NCBI GenBank assembly: GCA_030041475.1
Contig: JASHNU010000031.1
Location: forward strand, 1-64,000
Reading direction: 5' to 3'
Source of the DNA: Candidatus Sulfotelmatobacter sp.
GTDB taxonomy: Bacteria > Acidobacteriota > Terriglobia > Terriglobales > Acidobacteriaceae
Length of the DNA stretch: 64,000 nt
The notes under the pieces were generated by a model. The model worked only from the letters and a program-made list of their open reading frames with translations. It was not told the origin of the DNA and searched no databases. The position numbers and the translations under genes are program-made. Positions 18 to 6,260 of the stretch are shown one piece after another (the stretch's first letter is position 1; the number at the start of each line of letters is the position of its first letter).

Positions 18-46
18 TTGACGCCTGGTTGCGCGTTTTGTAATAT
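18..46 (+). promoter_or_regulatory. Sigma-70-like promoter of the thrC operon
   Basis: A -35 box TTGACG (18-23) and a -10 box TAATAT (41-46) are separated by exactly 17 bp. The predicted transcript starts near position 53, about 35 nt before the SAM riboswitch, so the aptamer would lie wholly within the leader of the threonine synthase mRNA. Confidence 0.65.
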
Positions 47-87
47 TGGTGGAACAAGTTCGCCCAACGGTCATCCGGAGGGTGGAC

Positions 88-209
88 CTGAATTTCATGC
101 AGAGTGGCTGAGGGACGAGCCCTGAGACGCCACGGCAACCGCACCGCGATCATATATCGCGATTGGCCGGTGCCAACTCTCTCCTGGAAACAGGGAACAT
201 GAGATTCGG
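88..209 (+). promoter_or_regulatory. SAM-I (S-box) riboswitch aptamer
   Basis: The S-box core is visible in order: AGAGTGGCTGAGGGA (101-115), a GCCC..GAGACGCCACGGCAACC segment (119-140), GGTGCCAACTC (169-179) and GGAACATGAGA near 194-204. The closing P1 helix forms between CTGAATTTCATG (88-99) and CATGAGATTCGG (198-209) with only G-U wobbles. This class binds S-adenosylmethionine and normally switches off methionine-related genes when SAM is plentiful. Here it precedes threonine synthase and a sulfur carrier gene, which is not the commonest target. The assignment rests on recognised motifs; no covariance model was run. Confidence 0.88.
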
Positions 210-234
210 CTGCGAGCTGTAGCTGCAACCGATA

Positions 235-290
235 GCCTCTTTTCCTTTTCCTGGAAAAAGAGGCCATTTGCTTTTTATGGCCGCTTTTTC
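235..290 (+). terminator. Likely riboswitch expression platform (two hairpins)
   Basis: Hairpin one pairs GCCTCTTTTCC (235-245) with TGGAAAAAGAGGC (252-264). Hairpin two pairs GGCCAT (262-267) with ATGGCC (277-282) and is followed by a T-rich run (285-289). The two hairpins share positions 262-264, so they compete. CCGAT at 228-232 could also pair with the 3' strand of P1 (ATTCGG, 204-209), which would give an antiterminator. Together they look like a SAM-dependent attenuator just before thrC. The exact switching pairs are inferred. Confidence 0.5.
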
Positions 291-328
291 CGGCTCGTCC
301 TCAGCTATTCGCGAAAGCGAGTAGCGCA

Positions 329-1645
329 ATGTCTCACTACGAACTTCGGTGCCGGGAATGCGGACGGACCTGGGGAAACCAGCCCCGCTCCATCTGCGAC
401 GAGTGTTTCTCTCCTCTGGAGGTCGCTTACGACTACGATTCGCTGCGCGGATCTAACGGCAGCGCGTTGACCCGTGAGCGCATCGCCCAGCGGCCGCCGA
501 ACATGTGGCGCTACTCCGAGCTTCTGCCCCTCCCCCAGGGGTTTCAACCGCGGCTGCCGGTTGGATTCACGCCGTTGTTTCAGGCGCCGCAGCTGGCGGC
601 AAGATTGACCGGGACGACTGCCGCGGCGGCGAATCTTTATATCAAGAACGATGCCGTCTGCCTGCCTACGCTGAGCTTCAAAGATCGTGTGGTTGCAGTC
701 GCGCTGGCCAATGCTCGCGAATTCGGATTTGACACCGTTTCCTGCTCCTCGACCGGCAACCTAGCCAACGCGGTCGCGGCGCATGCGGCCCGCGAAGGAC
801 TGAAGGCCTGGATCTTCATTCCCTCCGATCTCGAGCCCGCAAAAATTCTTGGCACCAACGTTTTCGGCGCAAAAGTGGTGCGCATCGCTGGCAACTATGA
901 CCAGGTCAACCGCCTGTGCTCGCAGGTTGCCGACGAGCATCGCTGGGGATTCGTCAACGTGAACCTGCGCCCGTACTACGCGGAGGGATCGAAGACCTTC
1001 GGCTTCGAAATCGCCGAGCAACTCGGCTGGCGCTTGCCTGACAACGTTGTTTGCCCGATGGCGGGCGGCTCGCTGATCACCAAGATCAAAAAGGCGTTTG
1101 ATGAACTGATCAAGCTCGGTTTGGTTGAGCCGAAGGAAGTAAAGTTTTTCGGCGCGCAAGCCACCGGATGCTCGCCGATTTCGACGGCGATCAAGACGGG
1201 CACTTCTGAGATCGAACCGCAGAAGCCGGCGACAATTGCTCGTTCACTCGCGATCGGCAATCCTGCCGACGGACACTACGCGATTAAGACGATCAAAGGC
1301 AGCGGCGGATGGAGCGAAGACGTGAGTGATCCGGAAGTCATCGATGCGATCCGCCTGGTCGCGGAAACGGAAGGGGTCTTCACAGAGACCGCGGGCGGCG
1401 TAACCGTAGGCTGCGCGGGCAAGCTGTATCGCCAGGACCGTATCCTGCCGGAGGAAACAACGGTGCTGTGCATCACAGGCAACGGATTGAAGACGACCGA
1501 CGTGCTCGCCGGTGTTTATCAGACCGAGCGTCCAATTGCACCCAAGCTGGCAGAGTTCGAGCAGTATCTGCAAAAGACGCTGGATGTAGCAGACATCCGT
1601 GAAATCGTCGGCGCGGCGGAAGAAGCCGCGAGCGTCGGAGCCTGA
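329..1645 (+). CDS. thrC: Threonine synthase, SAM-riboswitch controlled
   Basis: PLP-dependent fold-type II lyase of 438 aa that would convert O-phosphohomoserine to threonine and phosphate in the cytosol. An N-terminal zinc-ribbon-like segment (Cys8, Cys11, Cys23, Cys26) precedes the catalytic domain. The PLP lysine lies in LSFKDR (about Lys118), and CSSTGNLANA (139-148) is the phosphate-binding loop. The length is normal for the family. The ATG at 329 has no strong Shine-Dalgarno but fits family N-termini. A SAM-I riboswitch lies upstream and a MoaD/ThiS-like gene follows by 33 bp, an arrangement suggesting a link to methionine or sulfur metabolism. A paralogue making a different phosphohomoserine product, for example a sulfhydrylase, cannot be excluded from sequence alone. 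Confidence 0.9.
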   Translation: MSHYELRCRECGRTWGNQPRSICDECFSPLEVAYDYDSLRGSNGSALTRERIAQRPPNMWRYSELLPLPQGFQPRLPVGFTPLFQAPQLAARLTGTTAAAANLYIKNDAVCLPTLSFKDRVVAVALANAREFGFDTVSCSSTGNLANAVAAHAAREGLKAWIFIPSDLEPAKILGTNVFGAKVVRIAGNYDQVNRLCSQVADEHRWGFVNVNLRPYYAEGSKTFGFEIAEQLGWRLPDNVVCPMAGGSLITKIKKAFDELIKLGLVEPKEVKFFGAQATGCSPISTAIKTGTSEIEPQKPATIARSLAIGNPADGHYAIKTIKGSGGWSEDVSDPEVIDAIRLVAETEGVFTETAGGVTVGCAGKLYRQDRILPEETTVLCITGNGLKTTDVLAGVYQTERPIAPKLAEFEQYLQKTLDVADIREIVGAAEEAASVGA

Positions 1646-1678
1646 ACGTTGATATAAGAAGCAATGGAGATCTCACCG

Positions 1679-1960
1679 ATGCCTATTACTGTGCAAATTC
1701 CCTCCGCATTGCGGCGTCACACCGCGGGAACAAGCTCGCTGACCTGTGCGGCGAAAGATCTCGGAGAATTATTTTCGGTTCTGGATGAAAAATTTCCCGA
1801 GCTGAAGTCTCACCTGCGGGATGAAACAGGCCAGATTCGCCGCTTCCTCAACATTTACGTGAACGAAGAGGACATTCGCTTTCTCGGCGGATCCGCCTAC
1901 GCGTTCCAGGAAGGGGACGAAGTTCTGCTCGTGCCCTCGATCGCCGGCGGGAAGAATTAG
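1679..1960 (+). CDS. MoaD/ThiS-like ubiquitin-fold sulfur carrier protein
   Basis: Small beta-grasp protein of 93 aa. Carriers of this family are adenylated by a MoeB/ThiF E1-like enzyme on a C-terminal Gly-Gly and then thiocarboxylated to donate sulfur to molybdopterin, thiamin, cysteine (CysO) or homocysteine (HcyS). Here the Gly-Gly is followed by two residues (SIAGGKN at the end), so a protease would have to trim it before activation, as JAMM-type enzymes do in some systems. I start it at 1679 because GGAGA at 1666-1670 is well spaced from that ATG, whereas the ATG at 1664 has none. It is the second gene of the riboswitch-controlled thrC operon, which argues for amino-acid sulfur chemistry rather than molybdopterin. 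Confidence 0.8.
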   Translation: MPITVQIPSALRRHTAGTSSLTCAAKDLGELFSVLDEKFPELKSHLRDETGQIRRFLNIYVNEEDIRFLGGSAYAFQEGDEVLLVPSIAGGKN

Positions 1961-2109: not shown

Positions 2110-2856
2110 ATGCCACGCCACATTCAACGCGACGAGCGCCGCCGGCAACTTCGCGAACGTCGCCAGCAGTTACGTCAGCAACGGCACGAACTCCGCCGCA
2201 TGGGCACCCGCGGCCAGCCGAAGGAAAGCCGAGCGGCTATTCTGCAGGCTGCCGCCCAGGAATTTGGCCGCCACGGCATTGACGGCGCCCGCACCGATGC
2301 CATCGCCCGCGAGGCTCGCGTCAATAAAGCCCTCTTGTATTACTACTTCAAGGACAAGGAGACACTTTACGCCGCGGTCCTCGACTCCGCGTTCGCCGGC
2401 CTGAAGGCGACTGTGTTCCGCATGCTCGACAGCGATCTGCCGCCCCGGGAAAAAGTGCTGGCCTATGTGGGCGCGTACTTCGACTTCATTGCTTCCAATC
2501 AAATGTACCCGCGGCTGATGCAGCGCGAAATGATGCGTGCCCGCGAGGGGCAGTCGTCCCACATCGACAAAATAATCAACGTTTACATTCGTCCTATCTT
2601 TGGGAAGGTCAGCGAACTGATTCAGAAAGGCATCGCGGCAGGTGAATTTCGTCCGGTCAATCCCGCCCACTTCGTCCCTTCCATGGTGGCGATGATCGTG
2701 TTTTATTTCAGCAGCGCTCCCATGATGCAGAAGATCGTGGGCTTCAACCCGCTGACGCCGGAGAGGATCGCTGAGCGCCGCACTGCTGTTCTGGATTTCA
2801 TCTCCGCGGCGTTGTTCCGCGCCAAACCCAACGTTGTGCAAGGAGTACGTTCATGA
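2110..2856 (+). CDS. TetR/AcrR family transcriptional regulator
   Basis: A 248-aa DNA-binding repressor. The N-terminal helix-turn-helix spans about residues 38-85 (ending in NKALLYYYFKDKETLY, the family hallmark), and a helical ligand-binding domain follows. Residues 1-30 are a very Arg/Gln-rich extension before the usual family start; Met31 (position 2200) is the alternative start, but neither has a Shine-Dalgarno sequence. With ATG 2110 the mRNA leader would be only about 15 nt. The stop overlaps the start of the membrane fusion gene (ATGA), so the regulator is cotranscribed with the exporter it probably represses. The inducer is unknown. Confidence 0.87.
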   Translation: MPRHIQRDERRRQLRERRQQLRQQRHELRRMGTRGQPKESRAAILQAAAQEFGRHGIDGARTDAIAREARVNKALLYYYFKDKETLYAAVLDSAFAGLKATVFRMLDSDLPPREKVLAYVGAYFDFIASNQMYPRLMQREMMRAREGQSSHIDKIINVYIRPIFGKVSELIQKGIAAGEFRPVNPAHFVPSMVAMIVFYFSSAPMMQKIVGFNPLTPERIAERRTAVLDFISAALFRAKPNVVQGVRS

Positions 2857-3950
2857 GTGCGCGCAACCGCTTTTTCATTCTGCTGGGCATCATCTTCGTC
2901 ATCGCGGCGACCTACTACTATTTTTCGAGTGATCATTCGCCGGATCTCGTGCTGATCGGAACGGTCGACGCGAATCAGGTAATCGTGAGCGCACAGGTCG
3001 AAGGACGCATTCAGAAATTGCTCGTCGATGAAGGCACGCCGGTCAAGGCGGGCGATCTGATCGCGGAGCTTGATCCGTCGGAACTGCAGGCGCAGGAAGC
3101 GGCGGCCACCGCCAACATCTACAGTCTGCAGCACAAAGTTGCCGAGATGGAGCACACGGAAAAATCGACCTCCGGTTCGACCTCGAGCGACGTGGCCAAT
3201 GCGGAGGCCAAGCTCTCGTCGGCGAAGGCGCAGTTGTTGCAGGCGCAGGCCACGCTCGAACGCACGGAGAGCGATACTCGCCGCGCCGTGGAACTCGCGA
3301 AGGTGGGCGTGGTTTCGGATCAGGAGCGGGTGCAAGCCGAAACGAACTTGCAGGCAGCGCAGGCTAGTGTGCAGGCACAGCAGGATCTGGTGAACGCGGC
3401 GCAGGCTGATCTGAACGCGGCACGAGCGCGCACTTATCAGGCAAACGCCGCGAAGAGCACTGTGGAGGCCACGGAAGCCGATCTAAAGAATGCGATTGAG
3501 CAGAAGAATCAGGCTGCGGTGCGACTGGGCTACACGCATGTGGTTGCGCCGGTGACGGGAACGGTTTCGGTACGCGCGGCCCGCCAGGGAGAGGTGGTCA
3601 ACATCGGGGCACCGATCGTCACGATCGTCGACTTGAACGACACCTGGGTGCGGGCGGCGATTCCTGAAACCTACACTGATCACATCGGTTATGGGGACAC
3701 GCTGCGCGTGCGTTTGCCGGGAGGAACGATTACGAGCGGGAAAGTGTTTTTCAAAGGTGTGGAGGGCGATTACGCCACGCAGCGGGACGTGAGCCGGCGC
3801 AAGCGCGACATCAAAACGATCATCCTTAAAGTTCGTCTCGATAATCCAAAGGGGGCATACGTGCCGGGAATGACGGCCGAAGTCCTAGTGACACCTGCGC
3901 AGTTGAAGGGCAGCGCGCCGCAAAGCGTGCAGGCAGGGGGACAGCAGTGA
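2853..3950 (+). CDS. HlyD/EmrA-type membrane fusion protein (periplasmic adaptor)
   Basis: A 365-aa adaptor that would bridge an inner-membrane ABC exporter to an outer-membrane channel. It has one N-terminal membrane anchor (about residues 6-25), a biotinyl-lipoyl half-motif (VDANQVIVSAQVEGRIQKL), a long Ala/Gln-rich coiled-coil hairpin (about 75-215) and the second lipoyl half (VVAPVTGTVSVRA), then a beta-barrel domain. AAGGAG lies just before the start. It overlaps the TetR gene by 4 nt and the ATPase gene by 1 nt. The order regulator-adaptor-ATPase-permease resembles YbhG-YbhF-YbhS/R, here with a single permease. The substrate is not evident; drug or lipid efflux is the usual role. Confidence 0.87.
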   Translation: MSARNRFFILLGIIFVIAATYYYFSSDHSPDLVLIGTVDANQVIVSAQVEGRIQKLLVDEGTPVKAGDLIAELDPSELQAQEAAATANIYSLQHKVAEMEHTEKSTSGSTSSDVANAEAKLSSAKAQLLQAQATLERTESDTRRAVELAKVGVVSDQERVQAETNLQAAQASVQAQQDLVNAAQADLNAARARTYQANAAKSTVEATEADLKNAIEQKNQAAVRLGYTHVVAPVTGTVSVRAARQGEVVNIGAPIVTIVDLNDTWVRAAIPETYTDHIGYGDTLRVRLPGGTITSGKVFFKGVEGDYATQRDVSRRKRDIKTIILKVRLDNPKGAYVPGMTAEVLVTPAQLKGSAPQSVQAGGQQ

Positions 3951-5044
3951 TGGCAGAGCGAGATTCCAAACTCGACGCAAGAACGGCAGGCACTGCCGTC
4001 GCGACCAACGGCACCGTGTTGGAGAAGCCGGTCTACGATCCGAATGCGCCGTCAGCCATCGAAGTCGAGCACATCGTAAAGAAGTTCGGCGACTTCGCGG
4101 CCGTAGACGATGTTTCGTTCACCGTGAAGGAAGGTGAAATCTTCGGTTTGCTCGGCCCGAACGGTGCAGGGAAGTCGACCTTGATTCGGATGATGACCAC
4201 GCTCATTCCGATCACGTCGGGCGCGGGGCGCATCGCCGGACACGACGTAGCCAGGGAACCGAACGCTGTGCGCCGGTTGATTGGCGTTATTCCGCAGGCG
4301 CTGACCAGCGATCTGGACCTGACCGTCGAAGAGAACATGAGCATTTACGCCAAGCTGTACGATGTTCCGGCGAAAGACCGCGAGAAATCGATCGACGAAC
4401 TGCTGGAACTCGTGGATCTGACGAAGTGGCGCGATGCGCAGACGAAGACGCTTTCGGGCGGCATGCGGCGGAGGCTGGAAATTGCGCGCGGCCTGGTGCA
4501 TCACCCGCGCATTTTCTTTCTCGACGAGCCAACCACTGGACTTGATCCGGTGTCGCGAGTCGCGGTGTGGGAAATGCTCGGCAACATCAAGGAGCACCGG
4601 CGCCTTACGATTCTGATCACGACCCACTACATGGACGAAGCTGACCGTCTCTGCGACCGGATTGCGATCGTCGATCACGGCAAGCTCGTGGCACTCGACA
4701 CGCCCATGGCGCTCAAGGCGAGTGTGCCTGGATCGAACGTGATCGAGGTGCAGTTCGAGAACCCCGCGGCCGATTGGGAGCAGCGGCTGCACATGCTCGA
4801 CGACGTCACTTCGGTTCAGCATGAAGGCGCGGGCATGTACCGCGTGCTGACGGGAAATGGCTCGCGCACCACTACCGAACTGGTGGAAATGGCAGTCACG
4901 GCAGGAGTGCCGGTGAAATCGCTCTCGGTGCAGAACACGACGCTGGACGATGTCTTTGTGCACTACACGGGACGGCAGCTGCGCGACGAATTGCAGAAGG
5001 CGTACGGCTTCGTGATGCCGCAGCGGCCTGGGCTGCAGCCGTAG
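3950..5044 (+). CDS. ABC-2 exporter ATP-binding protein
   Basis: ATPase subunit of about 364 aa. Walker A GPNGAGKST is at 69-77, the signature LSGGMRR at about 168-174 and Walker B FFLDEP at 189-194, followed by the switch histidine (ITTHYMDEADR). The C-terminal region contains the domain typical of DrrA/CcmA-like drug or polysaccharide exporters. I choose ATG 3950, whose A is shared with the TGA of the upstream gene and which follows an AGGGGG sequence; the GTG at 3947 is less likely. A 30-residue low-complexity N-terminal tail precedes the nucleotide-binding domain. It acts with the downstream permease, although a repeat element separates the two genes. Confidence 0.9.
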   Translation: MAERDSKLDARTAGTAVATNGTVLEKPVYDPNAPSAIEVEHIVKKFGDFAAVDDVSFTVKEGEIFGLLGPNGAGKSTLIRMMTTLIPITSGAGRIAGHDVAREPNAVRRLIGVIPQALTSDLDLTVEENMSIYAKLYDVPAKDREKSIDELLELVDLTKWRDAQTKTLSGGMRRRLEIARGLVHHPRIFFLDEPTTGLDPVSRVAVWEMLGNIKEHRRLTILITTHYMDEADRLCDRIAIVDHGKLVALDTPMALKASVPGSNVIEVQFENPAADWEQRLHMLDDVTSVQHEGAGMYRVLTGNGSRTTTELVEMAVTAGVPVKSLSVQNTTLDDVFVHYTGRQLRDELQKAYGFVMPQRPGLQP

Positions 5045-5055
5045 TTTCCCGGTGC

Positions 5056-5127
5056 GCCTCTGTCCTCTCTGTGGTTTAGGCTTTTGAAAAATCACTCACC
5101 ACAGAGGGCGCAGAGGGGCACAGAGGA
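5056..5127. repeat. Palindromic 'CCACAGAGG' intergenic repeat
   Basis: CTCTGTGGT near 5068-5076 pairs with ACCACAGAG near 5098-5106 (9 bp), flanked by further CCTCTGT and GCAGAGG/CACAGAGG units. It fills the ATPase-permease gap. A related element occurs at 54955-55005. It looks like a dispersed non-coding palindrome rather than a terminator, since no T-run follows. Confidence 0.6.
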
Positions 5128-5147
5128 AGGCGACTCAGGACTAAGTT

Positions 5148-6260
5148 ATGAACCGGATCATGGCCATTGTCGAGCGCGAGATGCGCAAGTTTTTCCGCTC
5201 GCCGGCGTTGATGCTGGCGTCGATGATCTTTCCGCTGGTGCAGCTGATCATCCTGGGCAACGCGTTTGGCGGAAAAATCCACGATGCGAAAATCGCCATC
5301 GTGGATCAGGACGTCGGCCCGCAAGCGCTGCGGGTGCGCGAGGCTTTCGACGCCGTGCGCGCCAACATTCGCACCTTTACGCCCATCCCCTACGACAGCG
5401 ACAAGCAGGCCCAGGAAGACGTTCGCAACGGTCGCCTGCAGGGCGCGGTGATCATCCCGCCGCAGTTTTCACGCCGGGTCTATGAGGAGAATCATCCCCG
5501 CATTGTTCTGGTCGTCGACAACAGCGACAACTTCATGAGCTCGGCAGTCGAGGACGAGCTGACAAGCCTTACCAACGCCCTGAATCAGCCTACGGTGTCG
5601 CCCCGCATTCTGCAGCAGACGGCGCTGGATATTGTCGAACTCTATCCGTACATCGAGTACATGAAGTATCTGCTGCCCGGATCGCTGGCCCTAGCCATGT
5701 TCGTCTCGGTGATGATCGGCGGCGGCATGCTGTACATTGACGACAAGGCGCGCGGCGTCCACGAAGGCTACCTGGTCACGCCGATTACGAAACTCGAGCT
5801 TGTGCTCGGGTTGAATCTGGCGGGCGCGATTAAGGCCGTAATGACTGGCGTGATCATCGTGGTCATCGGGTCGATGCTGGCGGGGGTGGGAACGATTTTC
5901 AATCCCATCACTATGTTCGGCCTGCTGATCATGATCACGCTGACGTCGCTGGCGTTCAATACCATGATGTTCCTGCTGATGGTGCGCATCGAAGATCCGC
6001 TGGTGCCGCGCGCCATGTTCGGTATTCTGAACACGCTGCTGTTTTTCCCCAGCGGCTCGGTATATCCCATTCAGGCGTTTCCGCCTTGGCTGCGCGTGAT
6101 TGCCAGGGGCGATCCGTTCACGTACGCGGTCGACGGCTTCAAGTGCCTGCTGCTGAAGGAGACCACGCTCACGGCTGTGTGGGGAGACATGGCGTTTCTT
6201 ACCGTTTTCGCGGCGATCACTCTGGGGATTGCGATCCCCCTGTTCAAACGGACCTTGTAG
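5148..6260 (+). CDS. ABC-2 type transporter permease
   Basis: Inner-membrane permease of 370 aa. A first transmembrane segment lies near residues 19-37, followed by a large extracytoplasmic domain (about 40-175). A C-terminal bundle of about five segments (from LLPGSLALAMFVSVMIGGGML onward) matches the ABC2_membrane family (YhhJ/YbhR-like). The ATG has a modest AGGA sequence about 8 nt upstream. It completes the TetR-MFP-ATPase-permease set; related systems usually encode two permeases, so this one may work as a homodimer. Confidence 0.88.
   Translation: MNRIMAIVEREMRKFFRSPALMLASMIFPLVQLIILGNAFGGKIHDAKIAIVDQDVGPQALRVREAFDAVRANIRTFTPIPYDSDKQAQEDVRNGRLQGAVIIPPQFSRRVYEENHPRIVLVVDNSDNFMSSAVEDELTSLTNALNQPTVSPRILQQTALDIVELYPYIEYMKYLLPGSLALAMFVSVMIGGGMLYIDDKARGVHEGYLVTPITKLELVLGLNLAGAIKAVMTGVIIVVIGSMLAGVGTIFNPITMFGLLIMITLTSLAFNTMMFLLMVRIEDPLVPRAMFGILNTLLFFPSGSVYPIQAFPPWLRVIARGDPFTYAVDGFKCLLLKETTLTAVWGDMAFLTVFAAITLGIAIPLFKRTL

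Follow-up and report, generated by a model that had tools for sequence, protein, structure and literature searches.

Homocysteine synthesis from O-phosphohomoserine (OPHS) has been described for MetM of Streptomyces albulus (Hasebe et al. 2024, as cited in PMC12172450), whose gene has an S-adenosylmethionine (SAM) riboswitch upstream and a carrier gene of the neighbour type, metO. In the CysM-CysO-Mec+ system of Mycobacterium tuberculosis, O-phosphoserine is used together with the CysO thiocarboxylate and MoeZ, and a cysteine desulfurase has been suggested, the sulfur source having remained unknown in that report (PMC3227635). For Streptomyces lividans TK24, a published table has RF00162 upstream of a two-gene 'threonine biosynthesis' transcript and a cysteine desulfurase preceded by SAM-IV (PMC8079986). 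Here we describe a locus at the start of a 64,000-nucleotide stretch of DNA from Candidatus Sulfotelmatobacter sp., a soil acidobacterium (hereafter, the window), in which a SAM-I aptamer, a gene of the threonine synthase (ThrC) family and a CysO-like sulfur carrier gene follow one another on the plus strand, both genes running in the same direction. We propose, with a probability of roughly 0.8 and on the strength of genomic comparisons, that the locus encodes a SAM-controlled, OPHS-dependent homocysteine synthase, that is, an acidobacterial MetM-MetO pair. A prediction made earlier from the letters of the window (the original prediction) had raised a methionine route tied to SAM level; because MetM-MetO with a SAM riboswitch was reported for Streptomyces in 2024, that idea gains support from the genomic tests below but is not new.

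The window opens at the end of its contig (C106, in a genome of 4.63 Mb that is 99.56% complete), so that DNA further upstream of the pair is not visible. Its positions 92-205 are a SAM-I riboswitch by covariance-model match (Rfam RF00162, 69.4 bits vs. a gathering score of 44.4, E = 3.9 × 10−14, full length, 1-108 of 108), with SAM binding and regulation predicted; this is the sole match to the model above the gathering score in the window. The original prediction of a promoter, an S box and a hairpin platform was thereby confirmed for the aptamer and holds for the promoter-like pair of hexamers and the hairpins as well. Of 73 leaders (that of the window and 72 from relatives, with L063 omitted for want of upstream DNA), 62 have such a pair with at least 9 of 12 consensus matches no more than 110 nucleotides ahead of the aptamer, vs. 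4.5% of mononucleotide shuffles, and RNA folding z-scores (−3.7 for 206-345, and −5.8 for 60-345) indicate that leader hairpins are present. A terminator scan of positions 1-420 found none by its own rule, which the hairpin at 235-276 failed; the platform may control termination or translation.

Conservation is seen for a predicted pairing that would compete with the aptamer: the strand at 292-308 is complementary, with one bulge, to the 5′ strand of P2 and to P3. The strongest duplex that aptamer segment 104-127 can form with the leader outscores each of 40 dinucleotide shuffles in 48 of 74 leaders (73 loci plus the window), compared to 0, 1 and 0 for three non-overlapping control segments of the aptamer and 26 for an overlapping one; among ten more distant loci (L093, L095-L097, L100, L102-L106), none beats all 40 mononucleotide shuffles. 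The 3′ part of the anti-aptamer strand doubles as the 5′ arm of the start-codon hairpin. As scored, a minority of leaders have arms of the GCTAYTCGC/GCGAGTAGC type and others form different stems; an automatic search for start-codon hairpins in the 74 leaders returned stems of many different sequences. Given this diversity, we claim conservation for the anti-aptamer pairing only, and not in all leaders.

The nearest named relatives, judged by the ThrC-like enzyme, are metagenome-assembled genomes (MAGs) of Candidatus Sulfotelmatobacter, Acidobacteriota. Cultured relatives with the locus include Terriglobus albidus (L103) and Silvibacterium bohemicum (L100). SAM-I matches above the gathering score precede the enzyme gene in 73 of 80 named loci (19, 18, 19 and 17 of 20 per batch), and the carrier gene adjoins it in 74 of 80, so the conservation of the pair under S boxes in Acidobacteriota, suggested at the outset as a check, is borne out. 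Among the seven loci that miss the riboswitch, five (L045, L066, L081, L094, L101) have at most 208 upstream bases, L049 has a degraded match (33 bits), and L099 has none. The six exceptions for the carrier comprise L094, where it lies 1.5 kb away, L074, which ends at the gene, L082, with a 17-residue remnant, and L054, L057 and L098, with none. The window thus has both neighbourhood traits of MetM, a SAM riboswitch upstream and a neighbouring carrier gene. In a survey of 200 genomes of the order (completeness of at least 90 requested), we identified 134 SAM-I matches in 130 genomes. For 130 of these matches, the enzyme gene follows on the same strand at a distance of 99-412 bases; such a riboswitch precedes 130 of the 141 enzyme genes, and every genome with the riboswitch also has the enzyme. 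Under the stricter filters used here, 11 enzyme genes have no SAM-I match: the five of genus g10, those of G017 and G188, which lie at contig ends, and those of G088, G132, G185 and G190. All five sampled g10 genomes (G034, G074, G112, G161, G180) keep the enzyme and none has a SAM-I match under these filters, a pattern of lineage-specific loss or of a change in control. Two MetX loci used for comparison (L120, L121) gave no SAM match.

The enzyme gene encodes 438 amino acids with a PF00291 domain and scores 265.7 bits against the threonine synthase model TIGR00260 (cut-off 167.1). The original prediction of thrC plus a MoaD/ThiS-like gene was right about both families, but the gene is not the housekeeping thrC. 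Of ten PF00291 matches in the genome, one, on contig C99, is a ThrC gene (TIGR00260, 269.1 bits) followed directly by a homoserine kinase gene, thrB (TIGR00191, 202.8 bits, cut-off 168.25), which makes this pair look like the threonine operon; a further thrC, which the original prediction had proposed to look for, is therefore present, and the window enzyme is distinct from it. A third ThrC-like gene, on the minus strand of G000:C86 (L111:4165-5403), fits the PRK08197 type with 549.5 bits (cut-off 303). The window enzyme shares with the three best solved ThrC proteins, which we take to be those of Thermus, Aquifex and Bacillus, the family, the pyridoxal 5′-phosphate (PLP) lysine motif SFKD and about 350 aligned residues, whereas motifs near the PLP lysine and at the substrate site are replaced: PTLSFKDRVV in the window vs. 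PTGSFKDRGM, SSTGNLA vs. STGNT, NLRPYYAEGSKT / RPYYAEGSKT vs. NPxRxEGQKT, PMAGGS vs. PVGNAGN, IGNPADG vs. IGNPxSW, and ETAGG vs. EP[AG]S (EPAS or EPGS). These replacements may decide the activity of the enzyme; the motifs of the solved proteins are not universal, some being absent from more distant ThrC rows too.

At 26 alignment columns, one residue is common to the window enzyme, 15 relatives and an enzyme from the actinobacterium Nonomuraea and occurs in none of five ThrC rows (the genome's own C99 gene and four plasmid genes). In a tree, the window enzyme, its relatives and the Nonomuraea enzyme stand apart from ThrC with support of 100/99, under a long-branch warning and with ThrC represented solely by sequences of the own genome and of plasmids. 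The Nonomuraea relative, from another phylum and 52.8% identical, has SAM-I, enzyme and carrier ending in GG in the same order; it served as a stand-in for gauging kinship with S. albulus MetM, which is known here by description. The same data bear on the possibility that the gene provides a second threonine synthase at low SAM, keeping threonine flux up or draining phosphohomoserine, with the carrier unrelated to catalysis. The TIGR00260 score would fit such a role, as would the Microcystis homologue, which makes threonine (PMC12172450). However, the dedicated thrC-thrB operon and the 26 columns speak against it, SAM control of threonine synthesis would be odd, and the genome would be left with no known homocysteine route among those searched (MetX, MetA and HcyBio); we consider this explanation improbable and rejected an ordinary second threonine synthase. 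Many of the best 120 protein records listed carry the name threonine synthase, and automatic pathway tools are therefore likely to miscall both the threonine and the methionine routes.

A search of the genome for the acyltransferases MetX (TIGR01392) and MetA (PF04204) and for HcyBio (PF01837) gave no match at E of 0.001 (MetH and MetE were not searched for), while the same models matched in 9, 8 and 3, respectively, of 14 control genomes. The pair is thus the strongest candidate for the homocysteine step that is missing from this genome. Of the 200 genomes, 141 have the enzyme and 64 have MetX; 20 have both, 121 the enzyme only, 44 MetX only and 15 neither (Fisher value 2 × 10−16, with kinship ignored). 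Among the 57 genera (tallied by eye), the enzyme but never MetX occurs in 27, MetX but never the enzyme in 14, both in 7 and neither in 9; the genus of the window is represented by 14 genomes, its own among them, all with the enzyme and without MetX. The enzyme and MetX replace each other often, not strictly. Neither the genomes nor the controls attained the curated TIGR01392 cut-off of 500 bits, so MetX was called at E ≤ 7.1 × 10−88, above a clear gap (the next value being 2.1 × 10−46). MetM was counted at E ≤ 1 × 10−149, with the addition of a 66% fragment from G017 that lies at a contig end, and 7 genomes with only weaker matches (37-39% identity in 5 among the matches listed) were left out. 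The 121 enzyme-only genomes may likewise depend on the pair for homocysteine, MetA having been searched only in the genome of the window; in the 15 genomes with neither enzyme, the search covered MetX and MetM, and MetA was not searched there.

The carrier gene belongs to the ThiS family (PF02597). It probably starts at the in-frame ATG at 1679, the point at which relatives start, which would leave 33 bases between the two genes (18 from the start of the longest frame at 1664). Its best solved relatives are 3dwg_C (E = 5.7 × 10−20; the record names an antigen), presumably M. tuberculosis CysO, and 4n6e_B, a ThiS/MoaD family protein. It is a beta-grasp carrier with a C-terminal Gly-Gly, followed in the window by KN; in 66 of the 80 relatives that were scored (14 were not), 0-3 residues follow GG in 56 (2 in 41) and 9-29 in 10. 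Some Acidobacteriaceae (L095, L096, L100, L105) have a cysteine-rich carrier tail of 22-29 residues after GG. One MAG (L084:2992-4587) has enzyme and carrier in one open frame of 532 codons, through a fusion or a lost stop, the two being separate in its close relative L064; a real fusion would support a joint function.

Three other carriers occur in the genome: a MoaE-like fusion on C15 and a short ThiS-like protein on C31, with roles judged by eye, and a CysO-like one on C64. They weigh on the idea that the window carrier is an ordinary MoaD or ThiS that stands after thrC by accident. Its ThiS-family domain is compatible with this, and a MoaD would be expected to be the only one of its genome and to have MoaE as partner; instead, an apparent MoaD-MoaE fusion (the MoaE part by eye) and a ThiS-like carrier are present separately, the nearest solved relatives are CysO types, and adjacency to the enzyme is conserved. 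With MoaD-MoaE apparently encoded elsewhere, a molybdopterin-specific role, which the original prediction had named as counting against its proposal, is unlikely, and an accidental MoaD or ThiS is very improbable and was rejected. The C64 carrier ends in GGAA and lies beside a MoeZ/MoeB-type enzyme gene (L109:6610-8271), and C112 has a JAMM peptidase gene beside a CysM-type gene (L110:6841-8371); together these genes are perhaps a split CysO-type cysteine route.

The remaining 4 of the 134 SAM-I riboswitches all directly precede a NifS/IscS-type cysteine desulfurase gene, one of them in the genome of the window (on C89). This desulfurase best fits the NifS and IscS models, below their cut-offs (TIGR03402, 453.8 vs. 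530.75 bits), and the other three are 65-76% identical to it. The four leaders share a GCCTCATCC.../GGATGAGGC hairpin followed by a T run, terminator-like by eye. Two Streptomyces plasmid desulfurases have no SAM riboswitch. In Vibrionales, the cysteine desulfurase gene csd was predicted in the MetJ regulon (PMC4239095). A literature search, with most subscription papers outside its scope, returned no account of a SAM-I-controlled desulfurase or of metM-metO in Acidobacteriota. What may be new is the connection to sulfur supply, with a cysteine desulfurase behind the riboswitch class that also precedes the proposed MetM-MetO pair, and with it the reading of the order's SAM-I regulon as a sulfur relay; the four switches are a testable lead on the source of the carrier's sulfur.

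For the proposed MetM-MetO pair, we infer the substrate, the product and the sulfur donor, as well as the individual transfer steps and the direction in which SAM acts, as follows. At low SAM, the leader would permit expression. ThrB would make OPHS, and MetM, as a relative of threonine synthase, would take it up, eliminate phosphate at PLP and add sulfur at C4 to give homocysteine; threonine synthase would instead add water, at C3. The sulfur would reach MetM as a thiocarboxylate at the C-terminus of MetO, which the MoeZ-type enzyme of C64 would load. The sulfur would ultimately come from cysteine through the SAM-I-controlled desulfurase of C89, and high SAM would shut off both MetM-MetO and the desulfurase. 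We regard the carrier as the probable main sulfur donor. A desulfurase step in the supply is a more tentative suggestion, and so is the broader proposal that the SAM-I regulon of these Acidobacteriota spans a whole cysteine-to-homocysteine relay (desulfurase, MoeZ, MetO thiocarboxylate, MetM); if true, this relay would be an alternative to transsulfuration without release of free sulfide.

A variant of the same proposal has the homocysteine synthase using free sulfide, with the carrier serving elsewhere or as an optional donor. The authors of the Microcystis study used sodium sulfide to mimic the MetM reaction, obtaining only an unidentified peak (PMC12172450), and the second CysO-like carrier beside the MoeZ-like gene on C64 could also be read in this way. 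However, adjacency of carrier and enzyme, in Nonomuraea as in most of the related loci, makes a joint role likely, and a SAM-controlled desulfurase would better fit a persulfide relay; we hold the free-sulfide variant to be rather unlikely.

Several observations weigh against a SAM-controlled MetM-MetO route. The window enzyme passes the threonine synthase model. The strongest counter-evidence comes from the Microcystis homologue: 51.6% identical to S. albulus MetM and with a carrier adjoining, it has no SAM riboswitch, was reported to act as threonine synthase and threonine deaminase, and is apparently not fully MetM in cells (PMC12172450). Enzyme and MetX coexist in 20 of the 200 genomes, and 15 have neither. 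The original prediction had asked whether metB, metY and metZ are lacking; MetX and MetA gave no match, whereas metB/metY-type enzymes are not absent, two strong PF01053 enzymes (511 and 450.5 bits; the other 14 matches reach at most 34 bits) being encoded in the genome. One lies beside cysK on C3, which would fit reverse transsulfuration, and the other beside the threonine operon on C99; both are below the cut-off of every curated model among the matches listed (25 of 42). In principle they could act on OPHS, which makes the negative evidence on other routes incomplete. Two residues follow GG in MetO, so that a trimming peptidase is probably needed, for which the JAMM gene could serve. Finally, the desulfurase switch occurs in only 4 of the 200 genomes, and the one Nonomuraea desulfurase place examined, the best of seven, has no SAM riboswitch.

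Table 1. Features of the locus (window positions) and locations of the desulfurase riboswitches in the surveyed genomes
Feature	Position	Strand	Evidence
Sigma-70-like promoter, TTGACG-17-TAATAT	18..46	+	9/12 consensus match
SAM-I riboswitch aptamer (S box)	92..205	+	RF00162, 69.4 bits, E 3.9e-14
Terminator-like hairpin, GCCTCTTTTCC / GGAAAAAGAGGC, T run 272-276	235..276	+	Sequence reading, centroid fold
Anti-aptamer strand, one-bulge complement of aptamer bases 104-121	292..308	+	Sequence reading, duplex scoring
Hairpin directly before start codon, 5′ arm in common with anti-aptamer strand	304..325	+	Minimum free energy fold
MetM-like PLP enzyme (putative), threonine synthase family, fold type II	329..1645	+	PF00291, TIGR00260
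MetO-like sulfur carrier (putative), CysO/MoaD/ThiS family, ending ...SIAGG-KN	1679..1960	+	PF02597, 3dwg_C; longest frame from 1664
SAM-I riboswitches before cysteine desulfurase genes	G000:C89 (own genome, L013:558-1973); G080:C66, G111:C12, G157:C135 (loci L117, L118, L119)		

Adjoining the pair, window positions 2110-6260 encode a TetR regulator and then, by eye, an HlyD-type fusion protein, an ATP-binding cassette (ABC) ATPase and an ABC permease, an export operon. In four relatives, an Acido-Lenti-1 RNA (RF01687) lies close to the pair (L039:429-474, L055:5273-5317, L079:1637-1683 and L084:5878-5923).

Among the described systems, the HcyS-HcyD-MetY route of Wolinella succinogenes, which the original prediction had raised as a model, reportedly relies on MetY, a fold type I PF01053 enzyme that acts on acylated homoserine. 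A thiocarboxylate carrier feeding methionine synthesis would be common to both, whereas the partner enzyme here is of fold type II (PF00291), and a Wolinella-type route was rejected for this reason. A 2011 paper on the Wolinella system is cited in PMC6225789. With CysM-CysO of M. tuberculosis, the locus would share a PLP enzyme, a phospho-amino-acid substrate, a CysO-type thiocarboxylate carrier and, as proposed here, MoeZ loading; there O-phosphoserine is converted to cysteine, whereas here the enzyme is ThrC-like and a separate CysM-JAMM pair lies on C112. Compared by description with MetM-MetO of S. albulus, the locus has in common the ThrC-like enzyme, proposed here to use OPHS, the carrier gene and the SAM riboswitch upstream; it differs in phylum and in the added SAM-I-controlled desulfurase. 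The desulfurases here and in Vibrionales are both predicted to be under methionine/SAM-responsive control, exerted there by the protein repressor MetJ and here by a riboswitch, and the available part of the Vibrionales report mentions no carrier-based methionine route. S. lividans TK24, with gene identities taken from the table label, likewise combines RF00162 upstream of a 'threonine biosynthesis' transcript with a desulfurase preceded by a SAM-family switch, which is SAM-IV there and SAM-I here; if the relay proposed above is true, Streptomyces would have reached the same wiring with another riboswitch class on the desulfurase.

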